Source: Clostridiaceae bacterium (GTDB lineage: Bacteria > Bacillota > Clostridia > Saccharofermentanales > UBA5734). From it: DNA of 45,630 nucleotides. The stretch's first letter is position 1. Each line of letters opens with the position of its first letter. This document shows, piece after piece, positions 15,345-25,906 of the stretch. The position numbers and the translations under genes were made by a program. The notes below the pieces were generated by a model that was not told the DNA's origin, made no database searches, and saw only the letters and a program-made list of their open reading frames with translations. The stretch covers positions 1-45,630 of the forward strand of contig JAAYJD010000126.1 in the NCBI GenBank assembly GCA_012523135.1, in the 5' to 3' direction.

Positions 15345-15968
15345 ATGTGCGGCCGTTACTACATCGAGCAGGAAGAAGACCTCGCCGAAATGCGCCAGAT
15401 CCTGACGGAAGTCAACCGCCGTTACCAGGGGACGGAGGCGCTGTCAGCCATGCGCACCGGTGAGATCGCCCCGAGCCATGTCGTGCCTGCCTTGCGCCTG
15501 TCCGGCGAAACGGTGGTAGCCGACTTGGTCCAGTGGGGTTTTTTGCGTTTCCAGGGCAGCGGGCTGGTGATCAACGCCCGCGCGGAGACCGCCGCGGAAA
15601 AACCGATGTTTCGCGACGCCCTGCGCCAGGGCCGCATCCTGGTGCCGGCCAACGCGTTTTTCGAATGGCGGCACGACGCCAGCGGCCGGGCCGGGCAGAA
15701 AATGAAGCTGAGCCTGAGCCGTGAACTGACATTTTACATGGCCGGCCTGGCCCGCTTCTTTACCGAACCCGGCCAAGCGGCCTGGCAGCTGGATCGCTTC
15801 GTGATCCTGACCACGGCGGCCAATGATTCGGTCCGGCCGGTCCACGACCGGATGCCCGTGATCGTACCCCGGGATCAGCTGCGCAGCTATCTTCAGGACG
15901 AGGCTGCCGCCCGGCTTTTGCTGGCCAGGCCAGTCGGCCAGCAGCTGCAGCTGACCGAAGCGGTATAG
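15345..15968 (+). CDS. SRAP / YedK-HMCES family protein (abasic-site DNA-protein crosslink enzyme)
   Basis: The 207-residue protein begins MCGRYYIE; in the SRAP family Cys2, exposed after Met removal, forms a covalent thiazolidine link with abasic sites in single-stranded DNA. Other conserved parts are the NARAET element, the LVPANAFFEW loop and the catalytic His in VRPVHDRMPVIV. Length is typical. The role is protection of abasic sites during replication. The ATG lies directly after the cupin gene. Despite the family name (SOS response-associated), no LexA box is visible upstream of this unit. Confidence 0.92.
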   Translation: MCGRYYIEQEEDLAEMRQILTEVNRRYQGTEALSAMRTGEIAPSHVVPALRLSGETVVADLVQWGFLRFQGSGLVINARAETAAEKPMFRDALRQGRILVPANAFFEWRHDASGRAGQKMKLSLSRELTFYMAGLARFFTEPGQAAWQLDRFVILTTAANDSVRPVHDRMPVIVPRDQLRSYLQDEAAARLLLARPVGQQLQLTEAV

Positions 15969-19988: not shown

Positions 19989-20732
19989 ATGGACCTGCTG
20001 GACTGCCTGGTTGAGACCGGACTGACGCGTCAGGAAGCGCGCCTGTTTGTGTTGCTGTGCAGTGAAGGCGAGCTGACCGGATACGAAGCGGCCAAGCTCA
20101 GCGGCATGTCGCGTTCCAACGCCTATCTGGCCCTGGCTGGCCTGACCGACAAGGGCGGCGCCGTCTGCATCGACGGCGAAGTCCGGCGTTACGCGGCCGT
20201 TCCTGTGGCGGAATTTTGCCAGAACAAGCGGCGCCGCCTGGACGAGGTCCTGGCGGTGCTCCGCGACCAGATGCCGGCGGCCCGCCAGCTGGTCGAGCCT
20301 TTTCTGACGATCAAGGGCCGCGACAACATCCGCGACAAGATGCACAACCTGATCCGGCAAGCCCGTTACCGGGTCTACCTGTCCCTGGCCGCCGAGGAGG
20401 CGGCTGATGTGGCCGATGACCTGGCGGTCCTGCGTGACCGGGGCCTCAAGGTTGTCCTGATCACCTCAAGACCGTTTTTTCTGCCCGGCATCACCCTCTA
20501 CTACGCGGACAAAAAACCTGGCCAGATCCGCCTGATCGCGGACTCGGAAGGGGTCCTGACCGGCGAAATATCCGAGACCGGCGAGTCGTCGTGCCTCTTT
20601 TCGCATCACCAGGCGCTGGTCACGCTGTTTAAAGAGGCGCTGATTAACGAAATTCAAGTTATTAAGATGACAGGACAACAGGACGAAATAGCAAATAAAA
20701 GCGACAAAATAAACAAGGAGACAACCCGATGA
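19989..20732 (+). CDS. TrmB family transcriptional regulator
   Basis: This 247-residue protein has an N-terminal TrmB-type winged helix-turn-helix (residues ~5-75: LTRQEARLFVLLCSEGELTGYEAAKLSGMSRSNAYLALAGL), a linking helix with basic residues, and a C-terminal phospholipase D-like effector domain (~110-230) as in TrmB regulators. Such proteins sense sugars or other small ligands and bind palindromes. AAGGGGA precedes the ATG at 19989. The final codons overlap the lysA start (ATGA), giving tight coupling with a lysine biosynthesis gene; the regulator may therefore act on lysA and itself. The last ~20 residues are polar and unstructured. Confidence 0.85.
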   Translation: MDLLDCLVETGLTRQEARLFVLLCSEGELTGYEAAKLSGMSRSNAYLALAGLTDKGGAVCIDGEVRRYAAVPVAEFCQNKRRRLDEVLAVLRDQMPAARQLVEPFLTIKGRDNIRDKMHNLIRQARYRVYLSLAAEEAADVADDLAVLRDRGLKVVLITSRPFFLPGITLYYADKKPGQIRLIADSEGVLTGEISETGESSCLFSHHQALVTLFKEALINEIQVIKMTGQQDEIANKSDKINKETTR

Positions 20733-21991
20733 GCCCGACAGATGAACTGACCCAACGACATTTTTTCGGCGACCATGACCCCCAGACGCTGCTGGAACGA
20801 TTCGGCAGCCCGCTTTATGTCTACAATGAGGCGATCTTCAGGCAGCGTTGCCGGGAGATGCGCCGCCTGATCCGCTATGAGCCATTTACCGCCAACTACT
20901 CCATCAAGGCGAACAGCAACCTGGCGTTGCTGCGGATCGCCCGCGAGGAGGGGCTGCACGCCGACGCCATGTCGCCCGGCGAGATCTATGCCCTCGAGCA
21001 GGCCGGATTCAAACCGGAACAGATCTTTTTCGTACCCAACAATGTGTCCGCACCTGAGCTTGGCTATGCTCTGGAGCGGCAGATTTGCGTCAGCCTGGAT
21101 TCGCTGGACCAACTGGCGCTGGCCGGCCGGCTATCGCCGGGCCTGGACGTGGCGATCCGCATCAACCCGGGACTGGGTGCCGGCCATCACGCCAAGGTGA
21201 TCACGGCGGGCAAGAAGACCAAGTTCGGCATCAACGCCGAGCAGCTGGACGAGGCGCGGGCGATTGCCAGGCGCCATCATCTGCGCATTACCGGCGTCAA
21301 CCAGCACATCGGCTCGCTGTTCATGGAACCGCCGGCCTACCTGCGGGCGGCCCGGCACTTTTTTGAGCTGGCCGCCGGCTTTCCGGATTTGCATTTTGTC
21401 GACCTGGGCGGCGGTTTCGGCATTCCGTACCATAAGCTGGACGGGGAGGCGCGGCTCGACCTGCAGGAACTGCAGGAAGGCCTGGACCTGCTGGTTTCCG
21501 ATTTCGTACAGCGCTATGGCAGACCCGTCACGGTCAAGACGGAACCGGGCCGTTATGTGGTCGCGGAAAGCGGCGTGCTGCTGGGTACGGTGCACGCGCT
21601 CAAGGAAAACGACGGCGTCGTCTATGCCGGAACCGATATCGGGTTCAATGTGCTGGCCCGGCCGATGCTCTACGATTCCTGGCACGACATCGTCGTCTAC
21701 CGCGACGGACAGCCGCTTGAGGCGGACCCGGACAGGCTTCAGGCCGTGACGGTGGTGGGCAACATTTGCGAGAGCGGCGACATCCTGGCCAAGAACCGAC
21801 CCCTGCCGCCGCTATGCCCGGGCGATCAGCTGGCGGTCCTGGATGCCGGTGCCTATGGCTATGCGATGAGTTCCAACTACAACAACCGGCTGCGGCCGGC
21901 CGAAGTCCTGATCCGGCAGGACGGCACCGCCGCCCTGATCCGCCGGCGCGAGACGACTGAGGACCTGCTGCGCACCTGCCTGGAGATCTGA
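20729..21991 (+). CDS. lysA: Diaminopimelate decarboxylase
   Basis: The 420-residue enzyme is a fold-III PLP decarboxylase. The PLP lysine is K60 in YSIKANSN; other elements are ADAMSPGEI, HIGS, DLGGGFGIPY (phosphate-binding glycine loop), EPGRYVVAESG, the catalytic CESGDILAKNR and C-terminal DAGAYGYAMSSNYNNRLRPAEV. It removes CO2 from meso-diaminopimelate to give lysine, the last step of lysine synthesis. AAGGAG lies upstream of the ATG, which overlaps the stop of the regulator gene. No other lysine genes are present. Confidence 0.95.
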   Translation: MSPTDELTQRHFFGDHDPQTLLERFGSPLYVYNEAIFRQRCREMRRLIRYEPFTANYSIKANSNLALLRIAREEGLHADAMSPGEIYALEQAGFKPEQIFFVPNNVSAPELGYALERQICVSLDSLDQLALAGRLSPGLDVAIRINPGLGAGHHAKVITAGKKTKFGINAEQLDEARAIARRHHLRITGVNQHIGSLFMEPPAYLRAARHFFELAAGFPDLHFVDLGGGFGIPYHKLDGEARLDLQELQEGLDLLVSDFVQRYGRPVTVKTEPGRYVVAESGVLLGTVHALKENDGVVYAGTDIGFNVLARPMLYDSWHDIVVYRDGQPLEADPDRLQAVTVVGNICESGDILAKNRPLPPLCPGDQLAVLDAGAYGYAMSSNYNNRLRPAEVLIRQDGTAALIRRRETTEDLLRTCLEI

Positions 21992-22082: not shown

Positions 22083-22580
22083 ATGAACAAACGTTCGGAC
22101 TATATCAGCTGGGATGAATATTTCATGGGCATCGCGCTGCTGTCCGCCAAGCGCAGCAAAGACCCCAGCACCCAAGTCGGCGCCTGCATCGTCAACAAGC
22201 AGCACAAGATCGTTTCGGTCGGCTACAACGGCATGCCGATCGGCTGCAGCGACGACGCGTTCCCCTGGGATCGCGAAGGGGAGCCGCTTGAGACCAAATA
22301 CCCGTATGTCTGCCACGCGGAGCTCAATGCCATCCTCAACAATGTCGGCTTCAATCTCGCGGACTGCACTATCTACGTGCCGCTGTTTCCCTGCAACGAA
22401 TGCGGCAAGGCGATCATCCAGGCCGGTATTCGCGAAGTGGTCTACATCTCCGACAAGTATGCGCAGACCGACAGTGTCCGGGCGTCCAAGCGCATGCTCG
22501 ACCATGCCGGCGTCCGCTATCGCCGCCTGGAGACCAACCTGGAGACCCTGACCGTATCGTACCGGGTCGGCGATATCTGA
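22083..22580 (+). CDS. Deoxycytidylate (dCMP) deaminase family protein
   Basis: A 165-residue member of the zinc-dependent cytidine/deoxycytidylate deaminase family. The zinc and catalytic residues are visible as CHAE (H78, E80) and PCNEC (C104, C107). Features of the dCMP deaminase/ComEB group are an N-terminal WDEYFMGIALLSAKRSKDPSTQVGACIV and SVGYNGMPIGCSDD. It converts dCMP to dUMP for dTTP synthesis. Start at 22083 has AAAGGGG about ten bases upstream; an ATG at 22059 is in frame but lies before this site. It is a single-gene unit ended by a strong terminator. Confidence 0.92.
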   Translation: MNKRSDYISWDEYFMGIALLSAKRSKDPSTQVGACIVNKQHKIVSVGYNGMPIGCSDDAFPWDREGEPLETKYPYVCHAELNAILNNVGFNLADCTIYVPLFPCNECGKAIIQAGIREVVYISDKYAQTDSVRASKRMLDHAGVRYRRLETNLETLTVSYRVGDI

Positions 22581-22603
22581 CCGGTTCGGCCCATGCCCTG
22601 CCG

Positions 22604-22632
22604 ACACCCTGCCCCCGCAGGGTGTTTTTTTT
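22604..22632 (+). terminator. Strong intrinsic terminator
   Basis: Perfect 9-bp stem ACACCCTGC / GCAGGGTGT with a CCCC loop, followed by eight Ts. Confidence 0.9.
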
Positions 22633-22680
22633 GTGCCTGGAGCAACCCCAATAGCGAATAGCCGGCAAAAAGCCGGTGAA

Positions 22681-22694
22681 AAACATATGTTCGC
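22681..22694. promoter_or_regulatory. LexA box, upstream copy
   Basis: Read on the minus strand this is CGAACATATGTTT, matching the Gram-positive LexA/DinR consensus CGAAC-N4-GTTYG. It lies just upstream of the -35 of the following promoter and is the exact inverse of the second box at 22737-22749 over 13 bases. Confidence 0.8.
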
Positions 22695-22700
22695 AATCTC

Positions 22701-22729
22701 TTGACAAAACAGGAAAAGGGTGGTATTGT
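22701..22729 (+). promoter_or_regulatory. SOS-type promoter between two LexA boxes
   Basis: TTGACA (22701-22706), 17-base spacer ending in TGG, TATTGT (22724-22729). A consensus -35, ideal spacing and extended -10 should make it strong when free; LexA boxes on both sides should shut it off. Confidence 0.85.
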
Positions 22730-22736
22730 ATAAAAA

Positions 22737-22750
22737 CGAACATATGTTTG
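22737..22750. promoter_or_regulatory. LexA box at the transcription start
   Basis: CGAACATATGTTTG fits CGAAC-N4-GTTYG. It sits at the expected start site; its centre is 57 bases from that of the upstream box. Confidence 0.85.
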
Positions 22751-22781
22751 ACCCTGCGTCACACAGGAAAAGAGGTGCCCT

Positions 22782-23090
22782 ATGCCGGATATCAATGCTC
22801 TTTGGTGGCTGACCCTGATCTTGCTGGCCGTCGTTCTCGGCAGCCTGCTGCTGGCCGAGCGCAAAACTGAAAAGGCCATCTGGGACGCGTTTGCCCGCTC
22901 GCTGCCGTCTGAACCACCCGCCCGCCCGATGCTGGCCGAGGTTGAGCGCCCGCAGCGGATCAGCCGCTTTTTACCGGTTGCCGAAGCTGCGCGGGAAGAT
23001 GGGGCAGAACCGCCTGCCGCGCTGCAGTACGAGCTGCCGCGCGCGGTAAAAAAAGAGGCAGCCGTTGCCGACTGCCATCACTGTGCCTGA
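22782..23090 (+). CDS. LexA-controlled single-span membrane protein, candidate SOS cell-division inhibitor
   Basis: The 102-residue protein matches no family I recognise. Residues 8-24 (WWLTLILLAVVLGSLLL) form one N-terminal membrane span followed at once by positive charges (ERKTEK), so the C-terminal ~75 residues should face the cytoplasm. That part is proline- and alanine-rich, with a basic patch (ERPQRISRF), and ends in DCHHCA, a possible metal or thiol site. AGAGGTG precedes the ATG. The promoter is bracketed by two LexA boxes, so the gene should be induced by DNA damage. Small membrane proteins under LexA in other bacteria (SidA in Caulobacter, YneA in Bacillus) halt division; that role is inferred here from regulation and topology only. 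The last 43 bases overlap the terminator of the convergent gene. Confidence 0.75.
   Translation: MPDINALWWLTLILLAVVLGSLLLAERKTEKAIWDAFARSLPSEPPARPMLAEVERPQRISRFLPVAEAAREDGAEPPAALQYELPRAVKKEAAVADCHHCA
23048..23076 (-). terminator. Intrinsic terminator of the Re-citrate-synthase-like gene
   Basis: Minus strand: stem GGCAGTCG / CGGCTGCC (one G-T pair) with a GCAA tetraloop, then TCTTTTTTT. It lies within the 3' coding end of the opposing SOS gene. Confidence 0.75.
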
Positions 23091-23114
23091 CTTGCTGGAG
23101 CGCGGGATGCCCGG

Positions 23115-24539
23115 TCAGCAGGACTGGTCGACGCGCTCGCGTTTGCTGCGCAAACGGTGGTCGGTGGCCGCGATGAAGAAATCCGGATCGATGTGCTGCA
23201 GAATATCCTCGAGTTCGCCGTCCCCCATGACGGTGTTGCGCCCCGCCTGGTAAAGGCGGTCCACGGCCTCGCGGACAGCCTGGACAACGGGATGGCGCTT
23301 GTCGACGGCATGTTCGCCCTTGAGACCGTAGAAGCTGTTCAGCCAGTGGGCGATTCCGGCCAGGCCGGAGTGCGAGTCGACGGCAACGGTGGCGGGACGG
23401 TTGAGGATCCTGGCCGTGTCAAAGATATTGTAGATTTCCTCGTCTTTCAGCAGGCCGTCGGCATGGATGCCCGCCCGGGTCGCATTGAAATAGCGTCCGA
23501 CAAAGGGCGTGCGCGGCGGGATCTCATGGCCGAGCTCGGCCTCGAAATATTCGGCGATTTCCGTGATGACCGACAGGTCCATGCCGTCGGTCGTGCCGCG
23601 CAGGGAGGCGTACTCCACCGCCATGGCCTCCAGCGGGCAGTTGCCGGTCCGCTCGCCGATGCCGAGCAGCGAGCAGTTGACGCCGCTGCAGCCGTACAGC
23701 CAGGCTGTGGCGGCGTTGGTCACCACCTTGTAGAAATCGTTATGCCCGTGCCATTCAAGCCATTCGGAGGGAACTTCAGAATAATGCTGCAGACCGTAGA
23801 TAATGCCCGGAACGCTGCGCGGCAGGGCGACACCGGGATAGGAGACCGCGTAGCCGAGTGTGTCGCAGGCCCTGATCTTGATCGGCTTGCCGCTTTCCCG
23901 GGCCAGTTTCATCAGCTCATTGGCGAACGGGACGACAAAACCGTAAAAGTCAGCCCGGGTGATGTCTTCGAAATGGCAGCGGGGCAGGATGTCGTATTCC
24001 AGGGCACTGCGCACGATCCCCAGGTATTTCTGCATCGCCTGGCTGCGGTTGAGGTTCATCTTCTTGAAGATGTGGTAGTCCGAGCAGGAGACAAGGATGC
24101 CCGTTTCCCGGACCCCCATGTCCTTGACCAGCTGGAAGTCCTTTTCATTGGCACGGATCCAGCTGGTTACTTCCGGAAAATCGTAGCCCAGCTCCATGCA
24201 GCGGTTGACCGCCTGCTTATCCTTATCCGTATACAGGAAAAACTCGCTTTGCCGGATCAGGCCGTTCGGGCCGCCCAGTTTGTGCAGCAGCTGGAAGAGG
24301 CGGACGATCTGGTCGACCGTAAACGGCGAGCAGGCCTGCTGGCCGTCACGGAAGGTCGTGTCGGTGATCCAGATCTGGTCTGGGGTGTTCATCGGGACGA
24401 CACGGTGGTTGAAGGGGACCTTGGGGATGCTGACATAGTCGAAAAGATGCCGGTACAGATTGGGCTCGGCAACATCCTGCAAGGTGTAACGATAGGCCGA
24501 CTGCTCGAGCAGATTGGTTTTACGGCTGAATTCCAGCAT
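23115..24539 (-). CDS. Re-citrate synthase-like / homocitrate synthase family protein (HMGL-like)
   Basis: The 474-residue enzyme belongs to the DRE-TIM metallolyase family that condenses acetyl-CoA with 2-oxo acids. ITDTTFRDGQQ supplies the catalytic Arg-Asp pair, PRCHFEDITRAD and LEWHGHND supply metal-binding residues (the HGHND histidines), and NCSLLGIGERTGNCPLEAM is the conserved C-terminal barrel segment. The sequence style (SDYHIFKKMNLNRSQAM, DFYGFVVPFANELMKLA, IHADGLLKDEEIYNIFDT) recalls the Re-face citrate synthases of Clostridium kluyveri and other anaerobes rather than LeuA, so citrate formation from oxaloacetate is the preferred role, with homocitrate or isopropylmalate synthesis as alternatives. 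GGAGGG precedes the ATG. It is divergent from the polymerase gene across a palindromic region. Confidence 0.82.
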   Translation of the reverse strand: MLEFSRKTNLLEQSAYRYTLQDVAEPNLYRHLFDYVSIPKVPFNHRVVPMNTPDQIWITDTTFRDGQQACSPFTVDQIVRLFQLLHKLGGPNGLIRQSEFFLYTDKDKQAVNRCMELGYDFPEVTSWIRANEKDFQLVKDMGVRETGILVSCSDYHIFKKMNLNRSQAMQKYLGIVRSALEYDILPRCHFEDITRADFYGFVVPFANELMKLARESGKPIKIRACDTLGYAVSYPGVALPRSVPGIIYGLQHYSEVPSEWLEWHGHNDFYKVVTNAATAWLYGCSGVNCSLLGIGERTGNCPLEAMAVEYASLRGTTDGMDLSVITEIAEYFEAELGHEIPPRTPFVGRYFNATRAGIHADGLLKDEEIYNIFDTARILNRPATVAVDSHSGLAGIAHWLNSFYGLKGEHAVDKRHPVVQAVREAVDRLYQAGRNTVMGDGELEDILQHIDPDFFIAATDHRLRSKRERVDQSC

Positions 24540-24616: not shown

Positions 24617-25906
24617 ATGCTGTCAACCAATTGCCCCGATGCCGGGACCGCCTGGCCACGAGTCATTTTACACGCCGACCTCAATGGCTTCTATGCCGGG
24701 GTCGAGTGCCTCTACCGGCCTGAACTGCGCCAGAAACCCGTGGCCGTGAGCGGGGACGCCGAAAACCGGCACGGAATCATCCTGGCCAAAAATGAAATTG
24801 CCAAACGCTTTTCAATCAAGACCGGCGAGGCCATCTGGCAGGCGCGCCAAAAATGTCCGGGTCTGGTCGTGCTGACGGCCGACTATGCCAAGTATTTGCG
24901 CTATGCCCGTCTGACCCGGCAGATCCTGGCCGATTTTTCCGATCAGGTCGAGCCGTTCGGTCTGGACGAGGCCTGGATCGACGTGAGCGGCAGCATCCGC
25001 CTGCTGGGGGATGGGGTGGCCCTGGCCGACCGGGTCCGCCAGCGGACGCGCGAAGAGCTGGGCCTGACCTGCTCGGTCGGTGTCAGCTACAACAAGATTT
25101 TCGCCAAGCTGGGCAGCGACCTCAAAAAGCCGGACGCGACCGTCGCGATCCCGCCTGACCGCTTCCAGGCGATTGTCTGGCCGCTGCCGGTCCAGGACCT
25201 GCTCTATGTCGGGCCGTCGACGATGCGCCGGCTGCAGCGCATCGGCATCCGCACCATCGGGGGGCTGGCTGCGCTGCGCCTCGAGGACGCCCGCTACCTG
25301 CTGGGCAAGTGGGGCGAAACCCTCTGGCTGTTTGCCCGCGGCTTGGACGATTCGCCTGTCCATACCTCAGACGCGCGCGAGATGGTCAAATCGGTGGGCA
25401 ACAGCACGACCACGCCGCGCGACCTGGCCAGCGGCGATGACGTGCGTGTGATCCTGATGGTCTTGTCCGAGAGCGTCGCGGCCCGGCTGCGCGAGTATGG
25501 CCTGCGCTGCCAGACGGTGCAGATCAGCATCCGGGACAACCAGCTGGCGACGATTGAACGCCAGCAGAAGATGAGCCGGGCCACTGACCTGGCCCGCGAC
25601 ATCGTCCGCCAGGCCTGGCAGCTGTTTGAACGGCACTGGGCCTGGGCGCGCCCGATCCGCAGCCTGGGCGTGCGCGGCTGTGACCTGGTCACCGCGGACC
25701 GCCTGGAGCAACTCGCCCTGTTCGAGGATCCCGGCGCCTATGACCGGCAGAAAGAACTGGAGAAAACCATCGATGAGATCCGGCGTCGCTTTGGCTACTT
25801 CAGCATCCAGCGCGGCCTGATGCTCAGCGACCGCCAGCTGTCCGGCTTCAATCCCAAGGAAGAGCACGTCATCCACCCGGTTTCGTTTCCGGGGCTGTCC
25901 GGTTGA
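24617..25906 (+). CDS. dinB: Y-family DNA polymerase (DinB/Pol IV-like)
   Basis: The 429-residue protein has the Y-family palm: HADLNGFYAGVECL with the first catalytic Asp, then PFGLDEAWIDVSG with the Asp-Glu pair, and the conserved SVGVSYNKIFAKLGSDLKKP. A helix-hairpin-helix thumb follows (LLYVGPSTMRRLQRIGIRTIGGLAALR), then the little-finger domain, and LEQLALF, a beta-clamp-binding motif. Translesion synthesis past damaged bases is the expected job. Sequence details (steric gate Tyr in FYAG) fit Pol IV. ATG at 24617 has GGGGAG upstream. The 3' end overlaps the convergent EAL gene by 38 bases. No LexA box was found upstream. Confidence 0.92.
   Translation: MLSTNCPDAGTAWPRVILHADLNGFYAGVECLYRPELRQKPVAVSGDAENRHGIILAKNEIAKRFSIKTGEAIWQARQKCPGLVVLTADYAKYLRYARLTRQILADFSDQVEPFGLDEAWIDVSGSIRLLGDGVALADRVRQRTREELGLTCSVGVSYNKIFAKLGSDLKKPDATVAIPPDRFQAIVWPLPVQDLLYVGPSTMRRLQRIGIRTIGGLAALRLEDARYLLGKWGETLWLFARGLDDSPVHTSDAREMVKSVGNSTTTPRDLASGDDVRVILMVLSESVAARLREYGLRCQTVQISIRDNQLATIERQQKMSRATDLARDIVRQAWQLFERHWAWARPIRSLGVRGCDLVTADRLEQLALFEDPGAYDRQKELEKTIDEIRRRFGYFSIQRGLMLSDRQLSGFNPKEEHVIHPVSFPGLSG

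Follow-up and report, generated by a model that had tools for sequence, protein, structure and literature searches.

In Gram-positive bacteria, SOS-induced arrest of division is usually the work of small bitopic proteins, which block division at a late step and are afterwards removed by proteases; among them, YneA binds FtsW via its membrane helix and needs its LysM domain for inhibition (PMC13396833, PMC6851548, PMC6051672). The 77-residue SosA of Staphylococcus has no LysM domain, its turnover is governed by its extreme C-terminus, and the genes for the known Gram-positive inhibitors usually adjoin lexA (PMC6851548). In Caulobacter, SidA (29 residues) and DidA (71 residues) act on FtsW/FtsN (PMC4211646). 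How division is stopped after DNA damage without SulA or YneA is an open question in many Clostridia.

Here we describe small membrane proteins from a group of anaerobic Clostridia that form a previously undescribed family. The founding gene lies in a 45,630-nucleotide stretch of a Clostridiaceae bacterium genome (GCA_012523135.1, contig JAAYJD010000126.1), referred to here as the window. The family is a concrete candidate for the missing inhibitor of an order in which LexA scores above the profile cut-off in 133 of 148 genomes and short YneA was not found.

Results

Upstream of the gene, the window carries a lysA-like decarboxylase gene (20729–21991) and a comEB-type dCMP deaminase gene (22083–22580, plus strand; Pfam PF00383, E=1.5e-27), the latter unit ending in an intrinsic terminator (22603–22626, plus strand). 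Beyond the terminator, LexA box 1, CGAACATATGTTT on the minus strand (22681–22693), lies immediately 5′ of a plus-strand −35 element, TTGACA (22701–22706); the −10 element TATTGT (22724–22729, plus strand) follows after a 17-bp spacer and is preceded by TG; and LexA box 2, CGAACATATGTTTG (22737–22750, plus strand), sits at the expected transcription start. Both boxes are conserved in relatives. A first-pass annotation had described a perfect 13-bp inverted repeat with centres 57 bases apart around a TTGACA-17-TATTGT promoter, and this is precisely what the window holds: CGAACATATGTTT recurs exactly at 22737–22749 on the plus strand, giving 13-mers that are perfect inverted copies of each other, and 57 bp separate the dyads of the two 12-mers. 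The promoter between the boxes is the only promoter-like site within 22500–23200.

A probable ribosome-binding site, AAGAGGTG (22770–22777, plus strand), recognized by its sequence, precedes the open reading frame of a 102-residue membrane protein (22782–23090, plus strand) with a single hydrophobic stretch and the last residues DCHHCA. The promoter serves this frame only, as had been proposed, because the terminator lies upstream and the next gene, encoding an HMGL-like synthase (23115–24539, minus strand; PF00682, E=9.5e-30), is convergent and outside the small-gene unit. We rejected membership of the small gene in the dCMP deaminase operon, given the terminator and the separate promoter between them. 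Further downstream is dinB, encoding a Y-family DNA polymerase (24617–25906, plus strand; PF00817, E=1.7e-39). A box-like sequence at the start of the dCMP deaminase gene, GAACAAACGTTC (22085–22096), was treated as a coding coincidence because the gene of the relative G002 begins MEKRSDY, not MNKRSDY, a comparison of encoded residues rather than a base-by-base alignment. The window also holds a gene for an SRAP protein (HMCES-type, SOS-response-associated) at 15345–15968.

The source genome (3.4 Mb, 366 contigs) encodes one LexA of 209 residues, which scores 192.8 bits against TIGR00498 (cut-off 110.95). Its gene lies on another contig than the small gene, together with miaA and hfq, and its promoter bears CGAACAAAAGTTTG overlapping the −35 element, which supports the operator type of the window boxes. 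Across the whole genome, the pattern CGAACN4GTTYG occurs 17 times, counted by strand, and a reversed-pattern control 18 times, so most genomic matches are due to chance. Judged by position and neighboring ORFs, three of these sites are promoter-like: those in the window, at lexA and at position 30450 of contig C95. The last of these, CGAACAAATGTTCG (C95:30450–30463; L027:1501–1514), is 1.3 kb from the lexA box, with a GNAT acetyltransferase gene on one side and the gene of an FtsX/MacB-type permease on the other. With LexA in the genome and an operator of the CGAACN4GTTYG type placed on the promoter and kept in orthologues, the sequence features of a Gram-positive SOS regulon are present, and the 102-residue protein is very likely under LexA control.

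The protein family has no match in Pfam, NCBIfam, PHROGs or the PDB by sequence and profile searches, and the open-access literature searched held no account of such a protein; the Pfam and NCBIfam results bear out the annotated lack of a LysM domain. Single-sequence phmmer searches returned mostly noise, true orthologues becoming clear only once aligned; the early exceptions were G001, G002 and G003, with the same paired or single LexA boxes. Used as a profile, an alignment of this first set of relatives (A2) gave clear matches within the same family, in genera g6, g4 and g9, and all of these have boxes. Position alone, behind the dCMP deaminase gene, revealed members in G005, G007, G013, G019, G021 and G022, and profiles A4 and A5 added G015 and G008 as well as the f3 members G035, G037, G057, G081, G091 and G095. 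By position and by profile searches of the kind that the first-pass annotation had recommended, the protein family was found in 24 genomes from two families (f1 and f3) of one Clostridia order. Relatives with names include Oscillospiraceae bacterium AS15tlH2ME_27 (L109), Clostridiaceae bacterium AS09scLD_136 (L065), AS06rmzACSIP_365 (L139) and Clostridia bacterium INTA.AUR.044 (L054). In five family genomes with lexA (G004, G006, G010, G011 and G017), the profile found no member; such absence calls depend on how sensitive the profile is. The genomes are mostly metagenome assemblies.

Within 110 bp upstream of the start, all 24 family genes have one or more LexA boxes that score 9/10 or higher, and TTGAC occurs between or beside the boxes in every case. 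Two upstream boxes are present in 17 of the 24 genes at 9/10 and in 21 at 8/10; dinucleotide shuffles gave a mean of 0.2 genes with one box and none with two. New HMM matches down to E=0.003 all had correctly placed boxes, and matches above E=0.02 in other genomes had none; the weak protein matches are thus independently confirmed by the operators. A chance origin of the boxes was rejected on the shuffles and on the window itself, where CGAACATATGTTT with up to two mismatches has three matches against 0.41 expected, the third being the right-hand box counted again on the opposite strand. What weighs most against chance is that none of the 24 homologous genes lacks such a box upstream. Three outcomes had been named beforehand as speaking against the proposal, namely orthologues without boxes, a genome without LexA, and homology to a known family; none of these was encountered. 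DNA looping between the operators, which the first-pass annotation had offered alongside tight double repression, was not supported: in the 16 members whose promoter is bracketed by two boxes, the dyads lie 56, 57, 59, 62, 63 or 65 bp apart, corresponding to 5.3 to 6.2 helical turns, and the f3 members have boxes 27–30 bp apart. As the spacing is not phased, the data agree better with plain double occlusion of the promoter than with looping.

The dCMP deaminase gene is the upstream neighbor in most members, across both families. This conserved position, together with dinB directly downstream in G001 and ruvC in G018 and G012, would suit a role in DNA repair or nucleotide metabolism, the protein working with dCMP deaminase, DinB or RuvC as a membrane anchor or as a regulator. 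The SOS genes among these neighbors also speak for the division-inhibitor role discussed below. We find the repair or nucleotide role rather improbable, given that the gene has its own promoter behind a terminator, that its downstream neighbor differs from genome to genome, and that the upstream DNA read in G008, G015, G057, G081 and G091 has no dCMP deaminase signature (G015 and G057 being checked less fully). Just 5′ of ruvC in G018 and G012 is a possible LexA-like site, AAACAATCGTTC, scoring 8/10 (L038 ~1118 and L041 ~1061), and these ruvC genes may be SOS-controlled.

Family members have 39–198 residues and a consensus start MPxINxLFW. In the 102-residue protein, the transmembrane segment spans about residues 4–25 (22791–22856, plus strand), and an AlphaFold2 model, silent on function, shows a helix over residues 3–40 and a disordered tail. 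The tails, some 40 to 170 residues long except in the 39-residue G003 version, share a short motif and a conserved end: RFLPV in the window protein (22965–22979, plus strand) aligns with RFFNI, RFFDI, GFFxIG and DFLPV in relatives (RFFxI, GFFxIG or DFLPV overall), and its C-terminus is CHHCA (23073–23087, plus strand). TisB and DinQ are single-span peptides under SOS control (PMC3567139, PMC11575346), and a membrane-active peptide of their kind, whose target is not the divisome and which slows metabolism or depolarizes the membrane, would likewise be small, tightly LexA-repressed and built on a single hydrophobic helix. The long tail with its conserved motifs and C-terminus (in all but the G003 version) and a promoter layout held in common with YneA genes make a peptide of that sort unlikely. 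The G003 version (L009:1501–1620), a helix with a short tail behind one LexA box, may be a natural truncation, a product of decay or an assembly fault.

Positively charged residues flanking a membrane helix relate to its topology through the positive-inside rule. The five YneA proteins compared have four to seven lysines or arginines ahead of the helix; the 16 family members tested have none there and one to five behind it. The basic N-terminus that goes with the N-in/C-out orientation of YneA is therefore absent from these members; the rule favors N-out/C-in, and the family probably has the topology opposite to YneA. Topology is less certain in genus g2, whose members carry a net negative charge immediately behind the helix.

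The C-terminus is readable in 23 of the 24 members, the G009 protein running off its contig. A terminal alanine is found in 20 of these 23, compared to two of 62 YneA-type proteins; the endings are -CA (10), -IA (4), -VA (3), -AA (2), -SA (1), -AG (2) and -KK (1, in G003). ClpXP recognizes a C-terminal Ala-Ala (PMC7652416), so that a conserved -xA end is plausible as a degradation tag, even with the exact -AA end confined to two members; the conservation of alanine, mostly as -CA, suggests such a tag. A search of the source genome for a tmRNA, the carrier of an ssrA tag, gave only sub-threshold, tRNA-sized matches. Tail-specific proteases likewise favor small C-terminal residues such as alanine. 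The same ending would thus also suit a division inhibitor whose tail lies outside the cell and is turned over by CtpA, the protease that removes SosA and YneA (PMC6851548, PMC6051672). This variant of our preferred reading gains from the net negative charge after the helix in g2, and we consider it doubtful in view of the charge distribution in the tested members, the reverse of that in YneA.

To place the promoter in a wider context, its layout, TGTTC-N7-9-CTTGAC-N27-32-GAACANNTGTT, was scanned across 84,980 species and matched 112 stretches. The gene behind 63 of these matches a YneA/LysM profile (62 encode fewer than 200 residues), with lexA in the examined DNA for 51 of the 63; four stretches belong to the present family (L054, L065, L109 and L139). 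The others include further tiny membrane proteins, dinB, recA and radical-SAM genes, chance matches, and YneA-like genes truncated where the examined DNA stops. Because the pattern was derived from the promoters of the family, these counts describe what such promoters usually drive, not SOS control generally. Within the order itself, the YneA profile found no short LysM-type YneA in 148 genomes: at E≤1e-6 it retrieved only LysM proteins of 470–764 residues, and when family f1 was searched less strictly, one more LysM protein emerged, 267 residues long with an extra N-terminal region and not a YneA. Homology of the present family to YneA or LysM proteins was rejected, there being no match to NCBIfam NF010723 or to Pfam LysM. 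A promoter design shared with YneA, in an order without short YneA, lends support to the earlier suggestion that the 102-residue protein may be a new SOS checkpoint protein.

Division could instead be arrested by another protein, such as a membrane protein encoded divergently from lexA, leaving the present family a different SOS task. At most of the order's lexA loci that were read, a membrane protein with the motif RVYRLxGYTTVxKI is indeed encoded divergently from lexA, next to the lexA operator, and linkage to lexA is the habit of the known Gram-positive inhibitors (PMC6851548). This protein has one distant operator and a promoter that is not bracketed; moreover, it seems not to hold the inhibitor slot, because family f2 has it beside an extra small lexA-linked membrane protein. 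We give this alternative only a small chance. One representative of the RVYRLxGYTTVxKI protein (L001:2279–2848) is weakly similar to MacP (NCBIfam E=0.0018).

The extra protein of f2 has 58–82 residues and a single span, is encoded divergently from lexA (L251, L252, L260, L269, L270 and L247), and in several cases, where the intergenic region is readable, stands behind a CAAACGATTGTTCG LexA box. It is a second candidate SOS inhibitor, from a sister family. Since f2 has this other lexA-linked protein, the SOS slot appears to be filled differently from family to family.

Discussion

We regard it as probable that the family comprises LexA-repressed division inhibitors that work like YneA, SosA or SidA and are not homologous to them. 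In the undamaged cell, LexA would occupy two operators, one 5′ of the −35 element and one over the transcription start, and shut a good promoter; upon damage, RecA would trigger LexA cleavage and the protein would be made. Its single helix would anchor it in the membrane, the very short N-terminus probably lying outside and the disordered tail inside the cell. If the parallel with YneA, SosA and SidA holds, septation would stall because the helix engages FtsW and its partners in the septal wall-synthesis complex. The C-terminal alanine (mostly -CA, also -IA, -VA and -AA) would target the protein for quick degradation, by ClpXP in the case of a cytoplasmic tail, and division could restart once repair is complete. 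As the known Gram-positive inhibitors are small and bitopic, we infer that the new protein, likewise a small one-span protein with LexA control read from its operators, acts on division via its helix. The link to division is drawn from regulation, size, membrane anchoring and the absence of YneA, not from homology. Speaking against it, the gene sits beside that for dCMP deaminase, and known Gram-positive inhibitor genes usually sit beside lexA.

More specifically, and more tentatively, the protein might be a YneA replacement of inverted topology, whose helix reaches the septal machinery and whose cytoplasmic tail is handed to ClpXP via a -CA/-xA tag rather than to the extracytoplasmic CtpA. 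If the tag is real, checkpoint recovery would proceed by cytoplasmic proteolysis, a logic different from that of YneA and SosA.

Compared to YneA of B. subtilis and ChiZ, the family is similarly small, single-spanning and very likely LexA-controlled, and shares the double-operator promoter layout that they have in many Clostridia and Actinobacteria. It differs in having no LysM domain, no homology and an opposite predicted topology, in being linked to dCMP deaminase instead of lying beside or divergent from lexA, which is on another contig in the source genome, and in its conserved C-terminal alanine. SosA is likewise a LysM-free single-span SOS protein, but its gene is lexA-linked, a position not shared by the 102-residue protein, and its C-terminus is experimentally extracellular; the tools applied turned up no sequence link, and SosA was otherwise set apart by its described features. 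DivS of Corynebacterium, compared by description, suppresses division in the SOS response, spans the membrane once and likewise lacks LysM (PMC6851548) but is actinobacterial and lexA-linked. SidA and DidA resemble the family as small membrane inhibitors, and in G003 the family itself has a helix-only form of 39 residues; SidA and DidA come from another phylum, have no known homology to the family and are not known to carry a C-terminal alanine signature, and DidA is SOS-independent.

The promoter layout is also usable as a search key, having recovered the 63 YneA-type genes and several unrelated tiny membrane proteins, so lineages seem to have swapped the inhibitor repeatedly while keeping tight double-operator control. 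In Oscillospiraceae (L071, L102, L104, L138, L150 and L051), the same double-LexA promoter precedes a 38–42-residue membrane protein without LysM, for example MTTIGMIFIFIGAASLSIEFMRLIDKLEHGQPRRRRRAA, several of which end in AA or TA. In Coriobacteriia/Actinomycetes (L075 and L146), a double-LexA promoter precedes a 29-residue membrane peptide, MKKLITDAPVQTTAELVAIVLMVAVLFIR or a near relative, of SidA size and with lexA in the examined DNA. An unrelated further candidate stands behind the same kind of promoter in L047, L097 and L140: proteins of 74–96 residues that are anchored in the membrane by their C-terminus and whose N-terminal part bears a motif resembling GN(V/L)VDLTE(Y/F)RR.
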